Virus record (IMG/VR): IMGVR_UViG_3300047309_000114
Coordinates: 1-29,817 of that record
Source: a virus
Length of the DNA stretch: 29,817 nucleotides
Direction: 5' to 3' (one strand)
A program made the position numbers and the translations under genes. Position 1 is the first letter of the stretch; each line of letters begins with the position of its first letter. The notes under the pieces were generated by a model. That model was not told the DNA's origin, did no database searches, and saw only the letters and a program-made list of their open reading frames with translations. Positions 5,435 to 26,890 of the stretch are shown one piece after another.

Positions 5435-7162
5435 ATGAAAAATTTTTCAGACTTTGGGATTGACCTGCACGGCAAGTCCGGCGAAGAGGTCAAGACCACC
5501 TGCCCACAGTGCTCACACACACGGAAGAAGAAGAGCTATCCGTGCCTGAACGTGAACACGGAGAAGGGCGTATGGCACTGCCACCATTGCGGATGGTCAG
5601 GTGGCCTTGGTACAGGGGTCATCAATCGCTCGGCACCGCCGGCAAGACGGGTCTATCCCCGCCCCGAGTTCCGCCCCGCCGCCCTGAGCGAGGGTGCTCA
5701 GTCGTTCTTCCACAAGCGTGGCATCACGACAGAGGTTCTGATCCGCAACCGTGTCGCCCTCGAGAGGGTGTACATGCCGCAGATCGAGGACGAAGTCACA
5801 GCGATCGCGTACCCCTATTTCAAGGGCGGCGAGATCGTGAACATCAAGTACCGCGACAACGGGAAGAACTTCCGCCAGGTCGCAGGTGCAGAGAAGATCG
5901 TCTACAAGTACGACGACATCAACGATGACATGACCATCATCGTGGAGGGTGAGATGGATGCCCTCGCTCTGGAGGTTGCAGGTTTCCGCCAAGCAATCTC
6001 AGTCCCCGATGGCGCACCCACACCCGAGTCAAAGAACCTTGAGCTCAAGTTTGAATTCCTGAGCGACGAACGTTTCGACAAGGTGAAGCAATTCATCTTG
6101 GCGGTGGACTCAGACGAGCCAGGCAAGAAGCTCGAAGACGAGCTCGCCCGACGTCTCGGTCGTGACAAGTGTCTGCGCGTGGTGTGGCCAGAGGATTGCA
6201 AGGACGCCAACGAAGTCCTTGTCAAGCACGGCGCACAAGCCCTGCATCACTGCATCGAAGACGCCAAGCCGTTCCCTGTTGAGGGTGTGTTCTCGGTCAA
6301 TGACATCGAGGAAGACATCAACAACATGCTCGAATTTGGGATGATCAAGGGCGAGCCCACTGGCTGGGACTCAGTCAATGGTCTGTACACCCCCGCACCT
6401 GGCCAATGGAGTCTGGTCACTGGCATCCCTTCGATGGGCAAGAGCGAGTGGCTCGATGCGATGGCAATCAACATCGCAGAGAACGCAGGGTGGACCTTCG
6501 GCATCTGCTCTCCAGAGAACCAGCCCATCTCCTGGCATGCCGCCAAGCTGATGGAGAAGCGCATGGGTGAGCGTCTGGTTGCAGGGCGTGTGAACCAGGC
6601 CAAGTTTCAAGAGGCTAAGGCATGGGTTAATGACCACTTCAAATTCATCATGCCCGAGGAACCCAGCCTCGAGGCGGTGCATGCCAAGGCGAAGTTCCTG
6701 ATCCGTCGCCACGGCATGAAGGGTCTGATCATCGACCCGTACAACGAGCTCGATCACACCAAGCGCAAGGATGGAGTGAGCGAGACCGAGTACGTCAGCA
6801 CCTTCCTGACCCAGCTCCGCAAGTTTGCTCGAGACAACCAGATCCACACCTGGCTTGTGGCGCACCCCGCCAAGCTGATGAAGGATCTTAAGGGTGTGTA
6901 TCCCGTTCCCGATGGGTACACCGTCTCAGGCTCGGCGCACTTCTACAACAAGGCCGACAACATCATCGCCGTCCACCGTGACGTGCGTAACCCCCAGGCC
7001 CCGACCGAGGTTCACGTCCAGAAGATCCGCTCTCGTTGGCTCGGCAAGCGAGGCACGGCGTATCTGCAATGGCAACCCAACAGCGGTCGGTTCAAAGAGT
7101 TTGATGGTGCGTATCACCCGCCGACAGGTTCTGAGTACCAAGCAGCAAAGGACGGCGAATGA
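5435..7162 (+). CDS. DNA primase-helicase (T7 gp4 / Twinkle type)
   Basis: A bifunctional replication protein of 575 residues. The N-terminal zinc-binding domain shows C23-x2-C26 and C49-x2-C52 (HCHHCGW). The Toprim primase core has the EGEMDAL motif (Glu171) and the DSDEPG motif (Asp224, Asp226). The RecA-like helicase domain has Walker A GIPSMGKS (330-337), a Walker B-like LIIDPYNEL (Asp434) and WLVAHPAK near 473-480, as in DnaB-type ring helicases. It would prime and unwind at the phage fork. TAGGAG lies 4 bases before the ATG. It leads the rightward operon and overlaps the next gene by 4 bases. No DNA polymerase gene is seen in the window, so the host replicase is probably recruited. Confidence 0.95.
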   Translation: MKNFSDFGIDLHGKSGEEVKTTCPQCSHTRKKKSYPCLNVNTEKGVWHCHHCGWSGGLGTGVINRSAPPARRVYPRPEFRPAALSEGAQSFFHKRGITTEVLIRNRVALERVYMPQIEDEVTAIAYPYFKGGEIVNIKYRDNGKNFRQVAGAEKIVYKYDDINDDMTIIVEGEMDALALEVAGFRQAISVPDGAPTPESKNLELKFEFLSDERFDKVKQFILAVDSDEPGKKLEDELARRLGRDKCLRVVWPEDCKDANEVLVKHGAQALHHCIEDAKPFPVEGVFSVNDIEEDINNMLEFGMIKGEPTGWDSVNGLYTPAPGQWSLVTGIPSMGKSEWLDAMAINIAENAGWTFGICSPENQPISWHAAKLMEKRMGERLVAGRVNQAKFQEAKAWVNDHFKFIMPEEPSLEAVHAKAKFLIRRHGMKGLIIDPYNELDHTKRKDGVSETEYVSTFLTQLRKFARDNQIHTWLVAHPAKLMKDLKGVYPVPDGYTVSGSAHFYNKADNIIAVHRDVRNPQAPTEVHVQKIRSRWLGKRGTAYLQWQPNSGRFKEFDGAYHPPTGSEYQAAKDGE

Positions 7163-10860: not shown

Positions 10861-10900
10861 AAAAAAACAACAGCCAGGGCTCAAGGCCCTGGTCTGTTGT
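10861..10900 (-). terminator. intrinsic terminator of the leftward unit
   Basis: On the minus strand ACAACAGACCAGGGC pairs with GCCCTGGCTGTTGT (one mismatch), followed by a run of seven T. It lies 8 bases after the stop of the HTH gene. Confidence 0.92.
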
Positions 10901-11313: not shown

Positions 11314-11526
11314 TCATTGTGGTTCAGGCGCAAACGCCTTTCGGATTTCAGACTTTTTGTTGAGCTCCCATCGGTGGTCTGATGCTGAGACGGGGAAGAT
11401 GATTGTTCTGCTGCGTATACCATTGGTTAAAACTGCATGAAAATGTTTCTTGGACTGCACAAGGGATTCGACCCGAAGGCCGAGCCCGTTGCACAACTTG
11501 GTGATGTTTAGTTTGCGTCGATCCAA
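11314..11526 (-). CDS. small hypothetical phage protein, TTG start (70 aa)
   Basis: Reads SKKHFHAVLTNGIRSRTIIF then a SASDHRWELNKKSEIRKAF end. This H-F-x-V-L-x-N-G-x-R-S...SDHR pattern occurs in small proteins of many phages with no known function. The TTG start at 11526 has GGAGGGA just upstream and overlaps the preceding gene by 19 bases. It looks more coding-like than the overlapping 5' extension of the HTH gene. Confidence 0.68.
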   Translation of the reverse strand: MDRRKLNITKLCNGLGLRVESLVQSKKHFHAVLTNGIRSRTIIFPVSASDHRWELNKKSEIRKAFAPEPQ

Positions 11527-12044
11527 ATCCCTCCTCTCGACTTGATCTTGACCTCGACTGGTTCAGCGCCCTTGGGCCAGCTGATGTAGCCGAGCTCGGT
11601 GATTACTGATTGTGGATGTGCGTGGTAGGCCAGCGCCACATCCGCCGATGTAATGCGTCCAAGTCTGCGTCTTGCTTGCTCGATCGTGTCTCCCGTTTCG
11701 ACTGATCCATCCCGAGCCACCAGGAAATAACAGCGTTCGTTGAGATTGATGTTCTCAACTGGCGCCGTGTCCTCCAGTGCCCGATTGACCAGCTCGTCGG
11801 ATGCAATCCCAATGAAGTCGTCTCGATCCCATTGGGCACTCTCACCGTCTGCGATATGGATCCCGTAGACGATGTCTGAAAGGCTGCTCTCCTTGCAGCC
11901 GAAGCCTCCTGTTGCGTGAAAGATTTGAAAGCGTGGCGACTGGTATCGCCGGTTGAGCGCCGTGTGCTTGAGCACCAGGCGTTTGTTCTTCAGGTATCCG
12001 ACAAGGGGCATGAGCCCCTCGTCGCCTGCAACAATGCAGTTCAT
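11508..12044 (-). CDS. conserved-type hypothetical protein (178 aa)
   Basis: It contains FQIFHATGGFGCKESSLSD, then IHIADGESAQWDRDDFIGIA, a pattern I associate with hypothetical proteins of several phages; the C-terminal part (SVITELGYISWPKGAEPVEV) is beta-rich. No catalytic motif can be named. It is in the same leftward run as the amidoligase and amidotransferase, so it may take part in that system. It overlaps the 58-residue gene upstream by 4 bases. Confidence 0.72.
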   Translation of the reverse strand: MNCIVAGDEGLMPLVGYLKNKRLVLKHTALNRRYQSPRFQIFHATGGFGCKESSLSDIVYGIHIADGESAQWDRDDFIGIASDELVNRALEDTAPVENINLNERCYFLVARDGSVETGDTIEQARRRLGRITSADVALAYHAHPQSVITELGYISWPKGAEPVEVKIKSRGGIWIDAN

Positions 12045-12217
12045 CCACCTCCCTCGTTGGTCAGGTCGATCTGGTTGAAGAGTTGGTCGGAGATGTCACC
12101 GGGGATCAGGTCAGCCATGTGCATTGAAAGCAAGGCATCAGTTATCTCAAGCAGTCGTTCATCATTCCCTAGCGCATCGCCTATCTCGAGCGAGACATGC
12201 TGTTGCCAGCGGTCCAT
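12041..12217 (-). CDS. small acidic helical protein (58 aa)
   Basis: Begins MDRWQQHVSLEIGDALGND. It starts behind a strong Shine-Dalgarno (GAGGAGGCGC before ATG) and ends in an ATGA overlap with the next gene. The protein is acidic and helical and has no known motif. Confidence 0.68.
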   Translation of the reverse strand: MDRWQQHVSLEIGDALGNDERLLEITDALLSMHMADLIPGDISDQLFNQIDLTNEGGG

Positions 12218-12225
12218 GCGCCTCC

Positions 12226-13266
12226 TCAGTTGATCATCGAAGGTTGGATGGAGTCGGTGCGGAACAGATCCTCGATCCAGATCGCGGCCTCGTTGGGTTC
12301 CTCGGCAACCATTTGCTCGAGCTCCCCGTTGTCCAGGTCGTCGTACCAGTAGCCGATGACAGCGGCTGCTTTGTACGGAGCCTGCTTGCACCACGACTCG
12401 ATGCCGGCCAGGCCGTTACGCATCCAGCAATTGAACGCAGCACGGATCATCGGGCGGATCTCTTGCGGCGAATAGTTCACCACTTCACGGGCGATCTCAA
12501 CTTGATCCGCTTCTTCTTCTTTAACGACTTGTCCCTTGGCTTCAGTGGTAGCTGTTGACCCTTTGCTGTACCAGGCGTTGTCTTTTTGGCCGTGCCACCA
12601 TTCGGTGTACGCAGTGCCTTGGTCTTCGTCTTCCCAATACCGCGAGCGGTTGTACCCCGAGTACTGGTCGGTGTAGCCGGTTTGGGTTTGGTACGACGAA
12701 CGAAAACCAAACTTCGTGGTAGACCAGGCGTAAGTGTTGCTCAGCCAGGCTCCCACGAAGTTAACTCCGCTTTGTTGGTTAATGATGACGATCTCTCCGT
12801 CCGCACGGACGAGGCCGAATTTGTTGCCGCCTCCGATGATTCCGCCGATCATCTTCTGCCAGTCCGGATCGGTCATCAGGTCTGGGTTGGCTGTCAGCGC
12901 AGGCGCGATGATGTTGCGGATGAAATGCCAGGTGTCGGACTTGGACTTGTCGGCGGTGTTGCCGGTGGACAGGACGCCGTTGTGTGCCAGCCAGATGTCG
13001 TCGGTCACACGATACGGATGGCAGTTGTCCATGTCGATGTCGCCGTGCGTCTGCATACGGGCATGCCACACGCAGTCACGGCCTTCGGCGTGCTTCTGAT
13101 AGAAGTCGTACATATCCTGGCCGCTGGTGGGCAAGCACTTGTACACATGGATCTTGCCGTGCTCGGCATACATGACGCCGAAGCCGTCGCTGTTTTTGAT
13201 GTACACGTCTTCGATGAAGTCTTTGGTGAAGACGGTAGAGGCGGGTTGGTTAACGAGCAAACACAT
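12226..13266 (-). CDS. class II glutamine amidotransferase (Ntn hydrolase)
   Basis: The 346-residue protein starts MC, so Met removal would expose Cys2 as the N-terminal nucleophile. The rest of the GAT-II signature follows: NSDGFGVMY (24-33), HARMQTHG (68-75), NCHPYR (81-86), LAHNGVL (93-99) and SDTWHFIRNI (110-119). The C-terminal half (from about 200) is Tyr/Trp/Ser-rich and acidic and not recognised. Class II amidotransferases release ammonia from glutamine for an amide-forming or ligase partner; here the amidoligase gene lies 13 bases upstream. A specialised peptide-processing role, not plain ammonia supply, is possible. Confidence 0.85.
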   Translation of the reverse strand: MCLLVNQPASTVFTKDFIEDVYIKNSDGFGVMYAEHGKIHVYKCLPTSGQDMYDFYQKHAEGRDCVWHARMQTHGDIDMDNCHPYRVTDDIWLAHNGVLSTGNTADKSKSDTWHFIRNIIAPALTANPDLMTDPDWQKMIGGIIGGGNKFGLVRADGEIVIINQQSGVNFVGAWLSNTYAWSTTKFGFRSSYQTQTGYTDQYSGYNRSRYWEDEDQGTAYTEWWHGQKDNAWYSKGSTATTEAKGQVVKEEEADQVEIAREVVNYSPQEIRPMIRAAFNCWMRNGLAGIESWCKQAPYKAAAVIGYWYDDLDNGELEQMVAEEPNEAAIWIEDLFRTDSIQPSMIN

Positions 13267-13279
13267 GATTGAAATTTCC

Positions 13280-14719
13280 TTAAGCAGTTTGGAGGACGGC
13301 GTTCATATAGGGGCGGAGAATGGTTGTCTCGGCAGCACCCTTGTCGTTGATGTAGTCGATGAAGTTGTCACCGGTCAGTGACGCAGCATCGTTGGTGACA
13401 GACATCGAGCAGAAGTCAGTCAGCGCATTGCAGAACTCGACGGCAGCGATCACCGACTCGTACTTGAGCGAGCCCTTGAAGATACGGAACTCGATCGTGT
13501 GGCGCGGTGTGACGTTGATTGCCTCGTACCGGTCGGTAGACTGGTGAGCACTGGCCAGATCCTTCTGCTTGATCTTGCAATAGCCTTCCGCATAGCGGCG
13601 AGCGATAGCACGGATCATGGACTCGTTCTGCGGATCGTTGACGAACGTCACGATCTTGGCGATCTGGATCTGCGTCAGGTTGTCCTTGTTCACATGCACA
13701 TGCAAGCCGCAGGTGCGCGTGTTGTGGGAAAGCAGATACCGAACGGCGTCCTTGTTGCGAAGGAACTGCCACATCTCATGATGAGCAGGCAGTGACATCG
13801 GCTGGGTCACGATCTCGAAGCCGTTGCTGAGCGAGCCGTCGTTCTCGAAGAACACCTTGGCGCCACGCTCGCCACCGTTGATGACGTCGTGCAGCAGACT
13901 GGCCTTCTCCTCACGGCTGACCATCATGTCCTTGATCTCCACCTCGAGCTCGACGCCGAACCAGCGATGCTTGATCTTTGACCATTCATCAATGATGATG
14001 CGCTGATGAGCCTTGCTCGAGTGATAGCTGCCGATGATCGGCGGAGCTGGTGGTTCGTAGTCAAAGTGGACATACGAGTCCAGGTCATCATCGTAGTTGA
14101 AGTCATCGTCGTTTTCGTCAATGACGCAGTAGTTGCCGTTTTCATCCCGAGCATCTCTCGCGCAGTCTTCGTGAACGTGTGCGTCATAGCGATCAGACCA
14201 CCGATAGTTGTTGGCCACGCAATGACGGCACACATGCTCATCGTGGTACGTGTGAACGATCTTGGCGTCGTATTCCCAACGACCGCAATCATCGCAACGG
14301 CAGATGTCAATCTGCTCGCGCAGCCACTCCTCGCAGTTGATCTCGTCAGGAGCGCCATCAAACATGTTGGTGACACGACGCAGCTTGTCAAGGTTACGCA
14401 TCGAGCCAAGAGCCTTGTCGATCTTGACCATGTACACCAGGACAGCGAATCGGTTGTCATGATTGCGGGCGCACTTGCCGTAGCAAGCAGTTGCCATTTC
14501 GGAAATCCGATTACGCATTGAAGAAAGGATGGCCTTCTGTTCTTCGTTGTCTGTTGCGCCGATCTTGCCGGCCAAAGAGTTGAGAGCTGTGGCCAACGAC
14601 GCCATGAGTTCGCCAGCTGCCGCAGAGTTGCGCTGATGCAGGTTGCAGAAGCGGCTGGAGAACGTCTCGGTAGATTCGTTCATCCAGCGCTGCATAACAG
14701 GGAGGTTGTAGAGTTCCAT
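13280..14719 (-). CDS. amidoligase (Amidoligase_2 / GCS-like ATP-dependent ligase) with zinc ribbon
   Basis: The C-terminal half carries the amidoligase signature: WFGVELEVE (253-261), ENDGSLSNGFEIVTQP (292-307), CGLHVHV (337-343) and HTIEFRIFKG (407-416), as in the family of ATP-dependent amide-bond ligases related to glutamate-cysteine ligase and glutamine synthetase. A zinc ribbon (C140, C142, C145, C164, C167) and an acidic D-rich linker (about 200-222) precede it; the N-terminal 135 residues are helical. The product would ligate an amino acid, peptide or amine to a carboxylate. ATG at 14719 is supported by GGAGACCAA upstream. The amidotransferase follows 13 bases on; substrate unknown. 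Confidence 0.88.
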   Translation of the reverse strand: MELYNLPVMQRWMNESTETFSSRFCNLHQRNSAAAGELMASLATALNSLAGKIGATDNEEQKAILSSMRNRISEMATACYGKCARNHDNRFAVLVYMVKIDKALGSMRNLDKLRRVTNMFDGAPDEINCEEWLREQIDICRCDDCGRWEYDAKIVHTYHDEHVCRHCVANNYRWSDRYDAHVHEDCARDARDENGNYCVIDENDDDFNYDDDLDSYVHFDYEPPAPPIIGSYHSSKAHQRIIIDEWSKIKHRWFGVELEVEIKDMMVSREEKASLLHDVINGGERGAKVFFENDGSLSNGFEIVTQPMSLPAHHEMWQFLRNKDAVRYLLSHNTRTCGLHVHVNKDNLTQIQIAKIVTFVNDPQNESMIRAIARRYAEGYCKIKQKDLASAHQSTDRYEAINVTPRHTIEFRIFKGSLKYESVIAAVEFCNALTDFCSMSVTNDAASLTGDNFIDYINDKGAAETTILRPYMNAVLQTA

Positions 14720-14737: not shown

Positions 14738-14757
14738 AAAAACCCGCCGAAGCGGGT
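14738..14757 (-). terminator. intrinsic terminator upstream of the amidoligase
   Basis: Minus-strand CCCGC-TTCG-GCGGG with an extra-stable tetraloop, followed by TTTTT. It ends 18 bases before the amidoligase start, so the amidoligase-amidotransferase unit needs its own promoter or antitermination. Confidence 0.88.
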
Positions 14758-14810
14758 CACGAAAGGGAGAGCAGAGGAACAAGGAAACAGTGGATAGGGA
14801 TCAGGGAATC

Positions 14811-20636: not shown

Positions 20637-20876
20637 ATGGCAGCACGACTTCGCAAGACCCATCAGGACGACGTCCGCAAAAAGATTCAAGTTTCACAGC
20701 TCATCAATCGGCTGACCGATTGCGCCATGGGCAAGGTGGAGCTCACCTCGCAGCAGGTCCAGGCCATCAAAGTCCTGATGGACAAGTCGCTGCCGAACCT
20801 GTCTGACGTGAAGATCGAGACGGGTTCGCAGGGCATCACGTTCAACCTGAACGCCAACCTTCCAAAGCCGCAATGA
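20637..20876 (+). CDS. terminase small subunit
   Basis: The 79-residue product (MAARLRKTHQDDVRKKIQVS, then QLINRLTDCAMGKVELTSQQ) is a basic helical HTH-like protein, a form typical of phage small terminase subunits that recognise packaging sites. ATG at 20637 is chosen: GAGGTTGAT precedes it and upstream in-frame codons look non-coding. It overlaps the large subunit by 4 bases. The DNA site it reads may be the region just upstream. Confidence 0.82.
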   Translation: MAARLRKTHQDDVRKKIQVSQLINRLTDCAMGKVELTSQQVQAIKVLMDKSLPNLSDVKIETGSQGITFNLNANLPKPQ

Positions 20877-22330
20877 CGTTGGAGGTTGCACAACATGACG
20901 ACGGGTTGGTCACGTATTACCCGCCCGGACCCAACGCAGCCAGCTTTCATAACGACCATTCCTTTGTACGGGGACTCATGGGGCCTGTCGGTTCTGGCAA
21001 GTCCTCTTCCTGCTGCGCCGAGATCGTCATGCGAGCCTGCAAACAGGAGCCCTGGTACGACGGGGTCCGGCGATCTCGGTGGGCCATCATTCGAAACACC
21101 TACCCCGAGCTGAAGTCCACGACCATCAAGACCTGGCAGACGTGGTTCCCGCAGAACGTGGCGCCCATCCGCTGGGATACCCCGATCACCTCGACCATGA
21201 GGATTGACGACATCGGGGACGGCACGGCCATGGAGCTCGAGGTCATCTTCCTGGCGCTGGACTCAGAACTAGACACCGGAAAGTTACGGTCTTTAGAACT
21301 TACCGGTGTGTGGATCAATGAAGCGTCGGAGATCTCCAAGGCGGTCTTCGACATGTGTACCCAGCGTGTGGGTCGCTACCCGTCAAAGCTCAAGGGTGGC
21401 CCGAGCTGGACCGGCGTGGTGATGGACACCAACCCGCCCGACGACGACCACTGGTACTACCAGATCGCTGAGGTCGAAACGCCCAAGGGTTGGAAGTTCT
21501 TCCGCCAGCCAGGCGGAATCTATCGGGACGAGGACGGCAACTACCACCCGAACCCGGACGCCGAGAACATCGACAACCTGCCCAGCGGCCATGAGTACTA
21601 CCTGCGCCAGGTGGGCGGCAAACAGGAAGGCTGGATCAACGTCTTCCTGATGGGCAACTATGGGACGACATCAGATGGCAAGCCCGTCTATCCGGAGTGG
21701 AACGATCGAGTCCATGTTTCTGACAAGAAGCTCGAGCCGGTGCGTGGTCTGCCCATCATCCTGGGCTGGGACTTCGGGTTAACCCCAGCTTGCATCATCG
21801 GCCAGCAGATGCCCAATGGGCGCCTGGTCATCCTCGAGGAGATCATCTCCGAGGACATGGGTATCCGTCAGTTCACGTCGGACATCGTTCGACCGATCCT
21901 GACCAACAAGTACAACGGCTTTCAACGGTTCTCGGAAGGCGACCCCGCCGGCCAGATCCGCGCCCAGACCGACGAGCGTACCTGCCTCCAGGAGCTGCTC
22001 GAGCTGGGCATCCCAACCGAACCGGCGGCAACCAATGATTGGATACCCCGGCGAGAATCGGTTGCATTCTTCCTGACGCGAATGATTGACGGCGGACCTG
22101 GGCTCTTGCTTGACCCAAGCTGTTCGACGCTTCGCAAAGGATTCAATGGTCGCTACCGGTATGAGCGCGTGAAAAGTTCAGGCGCTGCACGATACAGGGA
22201 CCGTCCCGTCAAGGATGCCTTCTCGCATCCCCATGACGCTCTTCAGTATTTGTGCATGAGGGTGCGAAACGGTCTGCGGCCAGCAAGGGCTCGTTCGATC
22301 GTCCAAGCATCCAGTAAGGGTTGGACATGA
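20873..22330 (+). CDS. terL: terminase large subunit (packaging ATPase-nuclease)
   Basis: The 485-residue protein has Walker A GPVGSGKS (37-44), Walker B TGVWINE (144-150, Glu150) and a MDTNPPDD motif in the ATPase domain. The RNase H-like nuclease domain shows GWDFGLT (Asp300), EGDPAG (Asp357) and a C-terminal SHPHDALQY acidic patch. It cuts and pumps DNA into the procapsid through the portal encoded next. Its ATG overlaps the small-subunit stop (ATGA). Confidence 0.96.
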   Translation: MTLEVAQHDDGLVTYYPPGPNAASFHNDHSFVRGLMGPVGSGKSSSCCAEIVMRACKQEPWYDGVRRSRWAIIRNTYPELKSTTIKTWQTWFPQNVAPIRWDTPITSTMRIDDIGDGTAMELEVIFLALDSELDTGKLRSLELTGVWINEASEISKAVFDMCTQRVGRYPSKLKGGPSWTGVVMDTNPPDDDHWYYQIAEVETPKGWKFFRQPGGIYRDEDGNYHPNPDAENIDNLPSGHEYYLRQVGGKQEGWINVFLMGNYGTTSDGKPVYPEWNDRVHVSDKKLEPVRGLPIILGWDFGLTPACIIGQQMPNGRLVILEEIISEDMGIRQFTSDIVRPILTNKYNGFQRFSEGDPAGQIRAQTDERTCLQELLELGIPTEPAATNDWIPRRESVAFFLTRMIDGGPGLLLDPSCSTLRKGFNGRYRYERVKSSGAARYRDRPVKDAFSHPHDALQYLCMRVRNGLRPARARSIVQASSKGWT

Positions 22331-25903: not shown

Positions 25904-26890
25904 ATGTCTCTCGCAGCAGCAAGTAACTACTACGGCTCCGGCAACGCTGGCGCCTACGATTCGACCACCGGCTCTAACTTCATCCCCGAGGTATGGTCCG
26001 GCAAGCTCCAGGTCAAGTTCTACAAGAGCACCGTCCTGGGCGAAATCACCAACAACGATTGGGAAGGCGAGATCAAGGGTCAAGGCGACAAGGTCTACAT
26101 CCGTTCGATCCCCACCATCACCATCTCCAGCTACACCAAGGGCCAGAACCTGACCTCCCAGGTTCCCACCTCGACCCCGCTGGAACTGAACATCGACAAG
26201 GGCAAGTACTTCGCCGTCGTTCTGGACGACGTGGACGCTACCCAAGCCGACGTCAAGTTGATGGACATCTTCACCAATGACGCCAGTCAGCAGATGAAGA
26301 TCGCCATCGACGGTGATGTTCTTGGTACCGTGTTTGCCGACGCCGCCGCCGCCAACAAGGGTGCCACCGCTGGTGCCATCTCTGGCGACATCAACCTCGG
26401 CGCCACTGGTGCTCCCCGCCAAGTCACCTCGGCCAACGTTCTGGACATGATCCTGGATATGGGCCAGTGCTTGGACGAGCAGAACGTGCCTGAAGATGGC
26501 CGTTGGTGCGTCATGCCCGCCTGGATGGCCTCGATGATCAAGCGCTCGGACCTCAAGGCCGCGTACTTGACCGGCGACAGCGTTACGCCCCTGCGTAACG
26601 GCAAGCTGGGCATGGTGGATCGCTTCACCCTGTACGTCAGCAACAACCTGTCCAGCGTGACCGACCTGGGCGCTGACGCCGCCTCTGGCGGTACCGGTTC
26701 CAACGCCGACTACAAGGCTTGGAACATCATGGCCGGCACCCGCGATGCCATCTCGTTTGCCTCGCAGATGACCAACGTCGAGACCCTGCGTGCCCAAAGC
26801 ACGTTTGGCAACATCGTTCGTGGTCTGAACGTGTACGGCTACAAAGTGACCAAGCCCGAAGCTCTGGTTGCTGGCTACGTCCGCAAGTGA
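25904..26890 (+). CDS. major capsid protein
   Basis: The 328-residue protein follows the scaffold directly and has codon use like a highly expressed gene. It shows strand-rich blocks (DKVYIRSIPTITISSYTKGQ, NIDKGKYFAVVLDDVDATQA, FTLYVSNNLSSVTDLG) like those of P22-coat-like or N4-gp56-like capsid proteins with an HK97-type fold. An intrinsic terminator follows at 26911. Fold identity is inferred from position and pattern. Confidence 0.86.
   Translation: MSLAAASNYYGSGNAGAYDSTTGSNFIPEVWSGKLQVKFYKSTVLGEITNNDWEGEIKGQGDKVYIRSIPTITISSYTKGQNLTSQVPTSTPLELNIDKGKYFAVVLDDVDATQADVKLMDIFTNDASQQMKIAIDGDVLGTVFADAAAANKGATAGAISGDINLGATGAPRQVTSANVLDMILDMGQCLDEQNVPEDGRWCVMPAWMASMIKRSDLKAAYLTGDSVTPLRNGKLGMVDRFTLYVSNNLSSVTDLGADAASGGTGSNADYKAWNIMAGTRDAISFASQMTNVETLRAQSTFGNIVRGLNVYGYKVTKPEALVAGYVRK

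Follow-up and report, generated by a model that had tools for sequence, protein, structure and literature searches.

Does the close placement of an amidoligase gene and a glutamine amidotransferase gene in a phage genome reflect a shared function, and if so, what might the two proteins do? The question is raised by the virus record IMGVR_UViG_3300047309_000114 of IMG/VR, which was analysed over its whole length of 29,817 bases (the window). On the plus strand of the window are podovirus-like genes for the head and for packaging (terminase at 20873, head-tail adaptor at 22321 and major head protein at 25904). A primase/helicase gene lies at 5435, and Erf, exonuclease and MazG genes are on the minus strand. 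The two genes of interest are on the minus strand as well: an Amidoligase_2-family gene (13280–14719, 479 a.a.) is followed downstream by a gene for a class II glutamine amidotransferase (GAT-II, an Ntn hydrolase; 12226–13266, 346 a.a.), with a gap of 13 bases (13267–13279). The open reading frames, the gap and the family assignments are as given in the initial annotation.

A terminator-like hairpin (14741–14758, minus strand) lies directly upstream of the amidoligase start, and another (10874–10892, minus strand) closes the minus-strand gene block on its downstream side. Between 10500 and 21000 we counted 23 terminator-like hairpins, as compared to 7.8 in shuffled sequences (about threefold), several of them on the minus strand and directly upstream of genes. 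AT-rich palindromes and repeats of the ACCGGTATATACCGGT type are clustered between 19996 and 20260, within a largely non-coding stretch (19.3–20.5 kb) that separates divergent gene blocks; this cluster is possibly an origin or a regulatory site.

The two proteins and their predicted folds

The amidoligase scores 43.7 bits against the Pfam family Amidoligase_2 (PF12224), well above the cut-off of 22, matches the PHROG amidoligase families 16683 and 2443, and is conserved in more than 100 relatives. Its C-terminal ligase domain (residues 244–479; 13283–13990, minus strand) is predicted to adopt the fold of the glutamine synthetase/glutamate–cysteine ligase (GCS) superfamily: the closest fold matches of the domain model are YbdK (Z 12.3), glutamine synthetases (Z about 11), a plant glutamate–cysteine ligase (Z 10.9) and Dop/PafA (Z about 10). 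The fold is common to all of these, but identity to the superfamily is only about 13%, and the window protein adds an N-terminal helical and zinc-ribbon region and has a dedicated GAT partner. Residues E257, E259, D294, S296, H340, H342, R375, R397, N402, E410 and R412 are near-invariant in the ligase domain; leaving R397 aside, these residues are found in 95–99% of 117 relatives and are likely to be ATP-, metal- and substrate-site residues. Family, fold and conserved residues together predict an ATP-dependent amide-bond-forming enzyme.

The N-terminal part of the amidoligase alone has no match among the PHROGs, and when the amidoligase profile was run against solved structures, only a chance match to HSP90 came up. 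The whole AlphaFold2 model has a pLDDT of 77.6 and a pTM of 0.54. An acidic segment (residues 187–218; 14066–14161, minus strand), previously read as a linker, is predicted by AlphaFold2 to form beta strands with a block pLDDT of 66–82, and so is not a simple linker.

For the GAT, the Ntn glutaminase domain covers residues 1–196 (12679–13266, minus strand). The profile searches that had been proposed for both proteins, clearly positive for the amidoligase, were nominally negative here: GATase_4 scores 21.5 bits (cut-off 23) and GATase_6 scores 15.3 bits (cut-off 27), although a Pfam cut-off is not a biological feature, and 11 out of 12 members of the GAT family match GATase_4 at an E-value of 0.01. 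A profile built from the GAT relatives matches the glutaminase domain of GlmS (1xff; E 5.4e-6), and the model of residues 2–192 resembles EgtC (Z 10.6), PurF (Z 9.3) and GlmS (Z 9.1). The pLDDT is mostly 80–90 over residues 1–196, and the pTM of the whole GAT model is 0.54. Structure prediction, suggested as a check in the initial annotation, thus gave folds in keeping with the family of each protein.

C2, H68, R70, T73, G75, H83, P84, N96, G97 and D111 of the GAT are found in 98–100% of 112 relatives. Of these, R70, T73, G75, H83, P84, N96, G97 and D111 make up the glutamine-binding set, which could be aligned to that of GlmS, namely Arg, Thr-x-Gly, His-Pro, Asn-Gly and Asp (D111 is outside this alignment), and at the position where GlmS has a Trp adjoining the arginine, the window GAT has a Met. 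The figure of 100% for C2 is partly by construction, as a Met-Cys start was used in collecting the relatives, but the window GAT itself starts with MC, placing the Cys directly after the initiator Met. The C-terminal half of the protein had been described as unlike known ones. It begins with a low-confidence stretch at residues 195–263 (12478–12684, minus strand; pLDDT about 20–24 in most blocks), which is probably disordered judging from the model, and continues with a segment of predicted helices at residues 267–345 (12232–12468, minus strand). The C-terminal part alone matched no PHROG.

Neither protein matches any PADLOC defence model, and on this ground membership in a known anti-phage defence family was rejected.

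Conservation of the pair among viruses and in bacterial genomes

We drew two collections from IMG/VR, one by the amidoligase and the other by the GAT, which have contigs in common. The partner gene was found in the same order and on the same strand in 79 out of 79 and 76 out of 76 viral loci untouched by a contig end. Loci in which the two genes at first seemed apart proved to hold overlapping stop-to-stop ORFs, except for L023 and L108, both truncated and so left out. In bacterial genomes 25 loci were recovered, all with the GAT directly downstream of the amidoligase; these counts are of related sequences, taken from among the nearest relatives, rather than of independent events. The spacing was measured for 192 pairs with the true GAT starts, and 96 of the 107 non-redundant pairs are within 50 bases of each other or overlap. 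By comparison, no other gene of the window occurs in more than 38 of about 159 loci, a difference that is explained in part by the limited flanks fetched. The pair is therefore real and not a chance arrangement, as none of the close relatives with a complete locus has lost it, and it has been retained across very diverse phages, in keeping with the expectation that the two genes would be neighbors in related phages. Together with the profiles, predicted folds and catalytic residues, this synteny supports a functional link between the two proteins.

The 25 bacterial-genome loci come mainly from Clostridia, with others from Veillonella and a gammaproteobacterial MAG, and the genomic contexts examined include integrase, terminase or helicase genes. 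Ruminococcus flavefaciens YL228 (G002, contigs C6 and C9) has four amidoligase genes, each beside a GAT gene, and one of these pairs adjoins an integrase gene. More than one copy is also seen in clostridial loci: L188 has tandem amidoligases and L199 has two amidoligase–GAT pairs.

There are exceptions, which argue against obligate pairing: a few related amidoligases, those of Clostridioides difficile phage AR1086-1 and of a Microcoleus phage, have no detectable GAT. A candidate GAT beside the AR1086-1 amidoligase (L010, 4850–5860) was rejected, the neighbor being a RlaP-family nucleotidyltransferase. A distance of 1.1 kb separates the two genes in a Christensenellales phage.

Two further genes trail the GAT in the window: a 58-a.a. 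ORF (12041–12217, minus strand; AGGAGG before its start) and, overlapping it at the start, a 178-a.a. ORF with no assigned function (11508–12044, minus strand). Both ORFs follow the GAT at a constant short spacing in 33 loci, as in the window (the 58-a.a. ORF is 6–18 bases 3' of the GAT), which makes four genes the unit in the nearest branch; the wider family retains only the amidoligase and the GAT.

Known phage pairs and the position of the zinc ribbon

The pair in the window belongs to a kind of gene pair that was known from phages before, and is less unusual than the initial annotation suggested: amidoligase or GAT genes are annotated in the phages treated in PMC3890496, PMC3517423 and PMC10580990, and the pair has been discussed in several phage groups. 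An amidoligase gene followed by a GAT gene is found in LUZ24 (gp18–gp19, 11 bases apart), tf (tf_21–tf_22), BroderSalsa, HTN1, Bas87 and Laroye; RIO-1 has both genes, but separated. The LUZ24-type GAT is found in 326 phage records.

In the relevant passages of PMC5498523, a seven-gene peptidoglycan-modification cassette is described that is thought to block superinfection, with its GAT placed among the degradation genes; PMC10580990, in its discussion of these genes, applies the idea of wall modification and superinfection to the amidoligase–GATase pair. The wall idea goes back to Iyer et al. 2009 and Hardies et al. 2013, and is given here as related in PMC10580990 and PMC5498523. The sections of PMC3890496, PMC3517423, PMC10580990 and PMC5498523 that deal with these genes report no biochemical test of this hypothesis.

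The LUZ24/tf/phiEco32-like cassettes (LUZ24, tf and Bas87) resemble the window in that a PF12224 amidoligase is directly followed by a GAT-II, 11–77 bases apart. They differ in that genes for a COOH-NH2 ligase, an ATP-grasp protein and a gamma-glutamyl cyclotransferase (GGCT) flank the pair, and the LUZ24 amidoligase is too diverged to be detected by the profile of the window family. We searched the window (a fragment) and 26 pair-bearing records (40–67 kb, some of which may be incomplete) for these flanking genes: the COOH-NH2 ligase (PF14395) and the gamma-glutamyl cyclotransferase (PF06094) are absent from the window and from 26 out of 26 records, with LUZ24 as positive control for both. 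The ATP-grasp family PF08443 had no match in any record, LUZ24 included, whose own ATP-grasp protein was missed too. A full peptidoglycan cassette in the window branch was rejected on the absence of the COOH-NH2 ligase and the cyclotransferase from these sequences.

Two other phage groups have pairs that can be compared with that of the window. The Methylophilales (OM43) phages MEP401 and MEP402 (PMC10580990) have a two-gene unit in the same order, with a 10-base overlap in MEP402. Both catalytic domains are homologous to those of the window proteins and zinc-ribbon-type cysteines are on the amidoligase; however, overall identity is about 20–27%, their amidoligase is longer, and their GAT is without the C-terminal helical segment. 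Genes 98–99 of the Arthrobacter phage Laroye are also an amidoligase followed by a GAT, both detected by the window-family profiles, and cassette genes are absent from the part of the genome examined around them, but here neither protein has a zinc ribbon, and the host is an Actinobacterium.

The ribbon of the window amidoligase (residues 142–167; 14219–14296, minus strand) has the form CxxC...CxxC, zinc binding being predicted from the motif. A ribbon of five cysteines had been proposed. All five (C140, C142, C145, C164 and C167) are present in the window protein, but only the pairs 142/145 and 164/167 are conserved among 117 relatives (C142 85%, C145 91%, C164 93%, C167 91%; C140 only 2%), leaving a four-cysteine ribbon. 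In the window branch the ribbon is found on 90 out of 100 amidoligases versus one out of 108 GATs (the background is three out of 235 long ORFs). The opposite holds for LUZ24, tf, BroderSalsa, HTN1, RIO-1 and Bas87, in which it is on the C-terminus of the GAT in six out of six cases (L217, which is LUZ24, and L218, L219, L220, L221 and L223) and on the amidoligase in none of the six. We found no description of this difference in the literature. A zinc ribbon that is on either partner depending on the phage group suggests a single physical complex, which the ribbon would serve rather than one enzyme; what is compared between the two groups is the position of the ribbon.

A possible mechanism and its alternatives

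Our preferred reading, to which we assign a probability of about 0.5, is that the pair is a phage-encoded two-subunit glutamine-dependent amidoligase that alters a host carboxylate early in infection. The GAT-II would hydrolyse glutamine with its N-terminal cysteine, exposed once the Met is removed; the glutamine-synthetase-fold subunit would activate a carboxylate at the expense of ATP, in the form of an acyl phosphate, and would join to it the ammonia set free by the GAT, or else a small amine. The zinc ribbon and the helical parts may hold the subunits together or recruit the substrate. Of this reading, the analysis shows the gene structure, the family, the predicted fold, the catalytic residues and the steady pairing among close relatives, whereas the complex, ammonia as the intermediate passed on, the timing and the wall as target are inferred. 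Peptidoglycan stem peptides or their precursors are the leading candidate for the altered carboxylate, by analogy with the cassettes of LUZ24, RIO-1 and phiEco32 in the literature; against this target, the window branch has neither the COOH-NH2 ligase nor the cyclotransferase, from which the wall hypothesis drew its detail. A comparison with MurT–GatD is one of function only, as the folds differ on both sides (MurT–GatD combines a Mur ligase with a class I GAT). It too consists of a ligase and a glutaminase encoded by two co-transcribed genes, and it amidates a glutamate carboxylate of the wall (PMC3267633).

The main rival explanation comes from the top fold matches of the two models, YbdK and EgtC: the ligase would make a gamma-glutamyl bond or another amide of glutamate, in the way of YbdK/GCS-type enzymes, and an EgtC-like GAT-II would remove the glutamyl group, with glutamine not acting as an ammonia donor. 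EgtC, an Ntn hydrolase that acts in the biosynthesis of ergothioneine, is not known to serve as an ammonia donor, and with EgtC as the best match of the GAT model, ammonia transfer is putative; yet PurF and GlmS follow within about 1.5 Z, and fold does not reveal the substrate. The Met that replaces the Trp of GlmS beside the arginine favors removal of a glutamyl group, as does the place of the cassette GAT among the degradation genes in the account of PMC5498523. The whole glutamine-binding set is kept in the relatives, but the same glutamyl-binding residues are needed for both reactions, so the sequence does not separate the two readings. Such a cycle would need cyclotransferases and second ligases for its completion, and these are absent. 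We consider this explanation possible but rather unlikely.

The fold matches of the ligase domain to PafA and Dop (Z about 10) raise another alternative, namely that the product of the pair is a soluble amide metabolite, or that proteins are tagged with a small amine or peptide in the manner of the Pup ligase PafA, with the zinc ribbon and the extra domains binding the protein target. But the matches to glutamine synthetases and YbdK are equally good or better, and the only candidate for a tag peptide beside the pair is the unassigned 58-a.a. ORF, which some members of the family lack; we find this alternative improbable. GAT-II and amidotransferase chemistry is also used in some phage DNA modifications, so that the pair might attach amides to modified bases of the phage DNA. 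However, thymidylate synthase family genes were found in none of 27 pair-bearing records and QueC in only one (a weak match), and a comparison of 20 window proteins with the PHROGs brought up no DNA-modification gene, which makes this role very improbable.

A broader form of the two-subunit amidoligase is offered tentatively, and we would not be surprised to see it fail: a self-sufficient, mobile glutamine-dependent enzyme in phages and prophages of unrelated hosts, in which the ribbon has moved between the partners and docks onto or recognises one host macromolecule, and of which the larger cassette would be an elaboration and not itself the functional unit.

Amidoligase and GAT-II pairs are common in phage genomes, with wall modification as the hypothesis for their role. 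The window pair stands out by a gene set reduced to the minimum and by a zinc ribbon on the opposite partner: the two genes by themselves form an invariant core, lacking the COOH-NH2 ligase and the cyclotransferase, which narrows what needs testing, and the ribbon on alternate partners suggests that the two proteins physically associate. The question is experimentally accessible in a laboratory strain through E. coli phages with the pair (e.g. Bas87).
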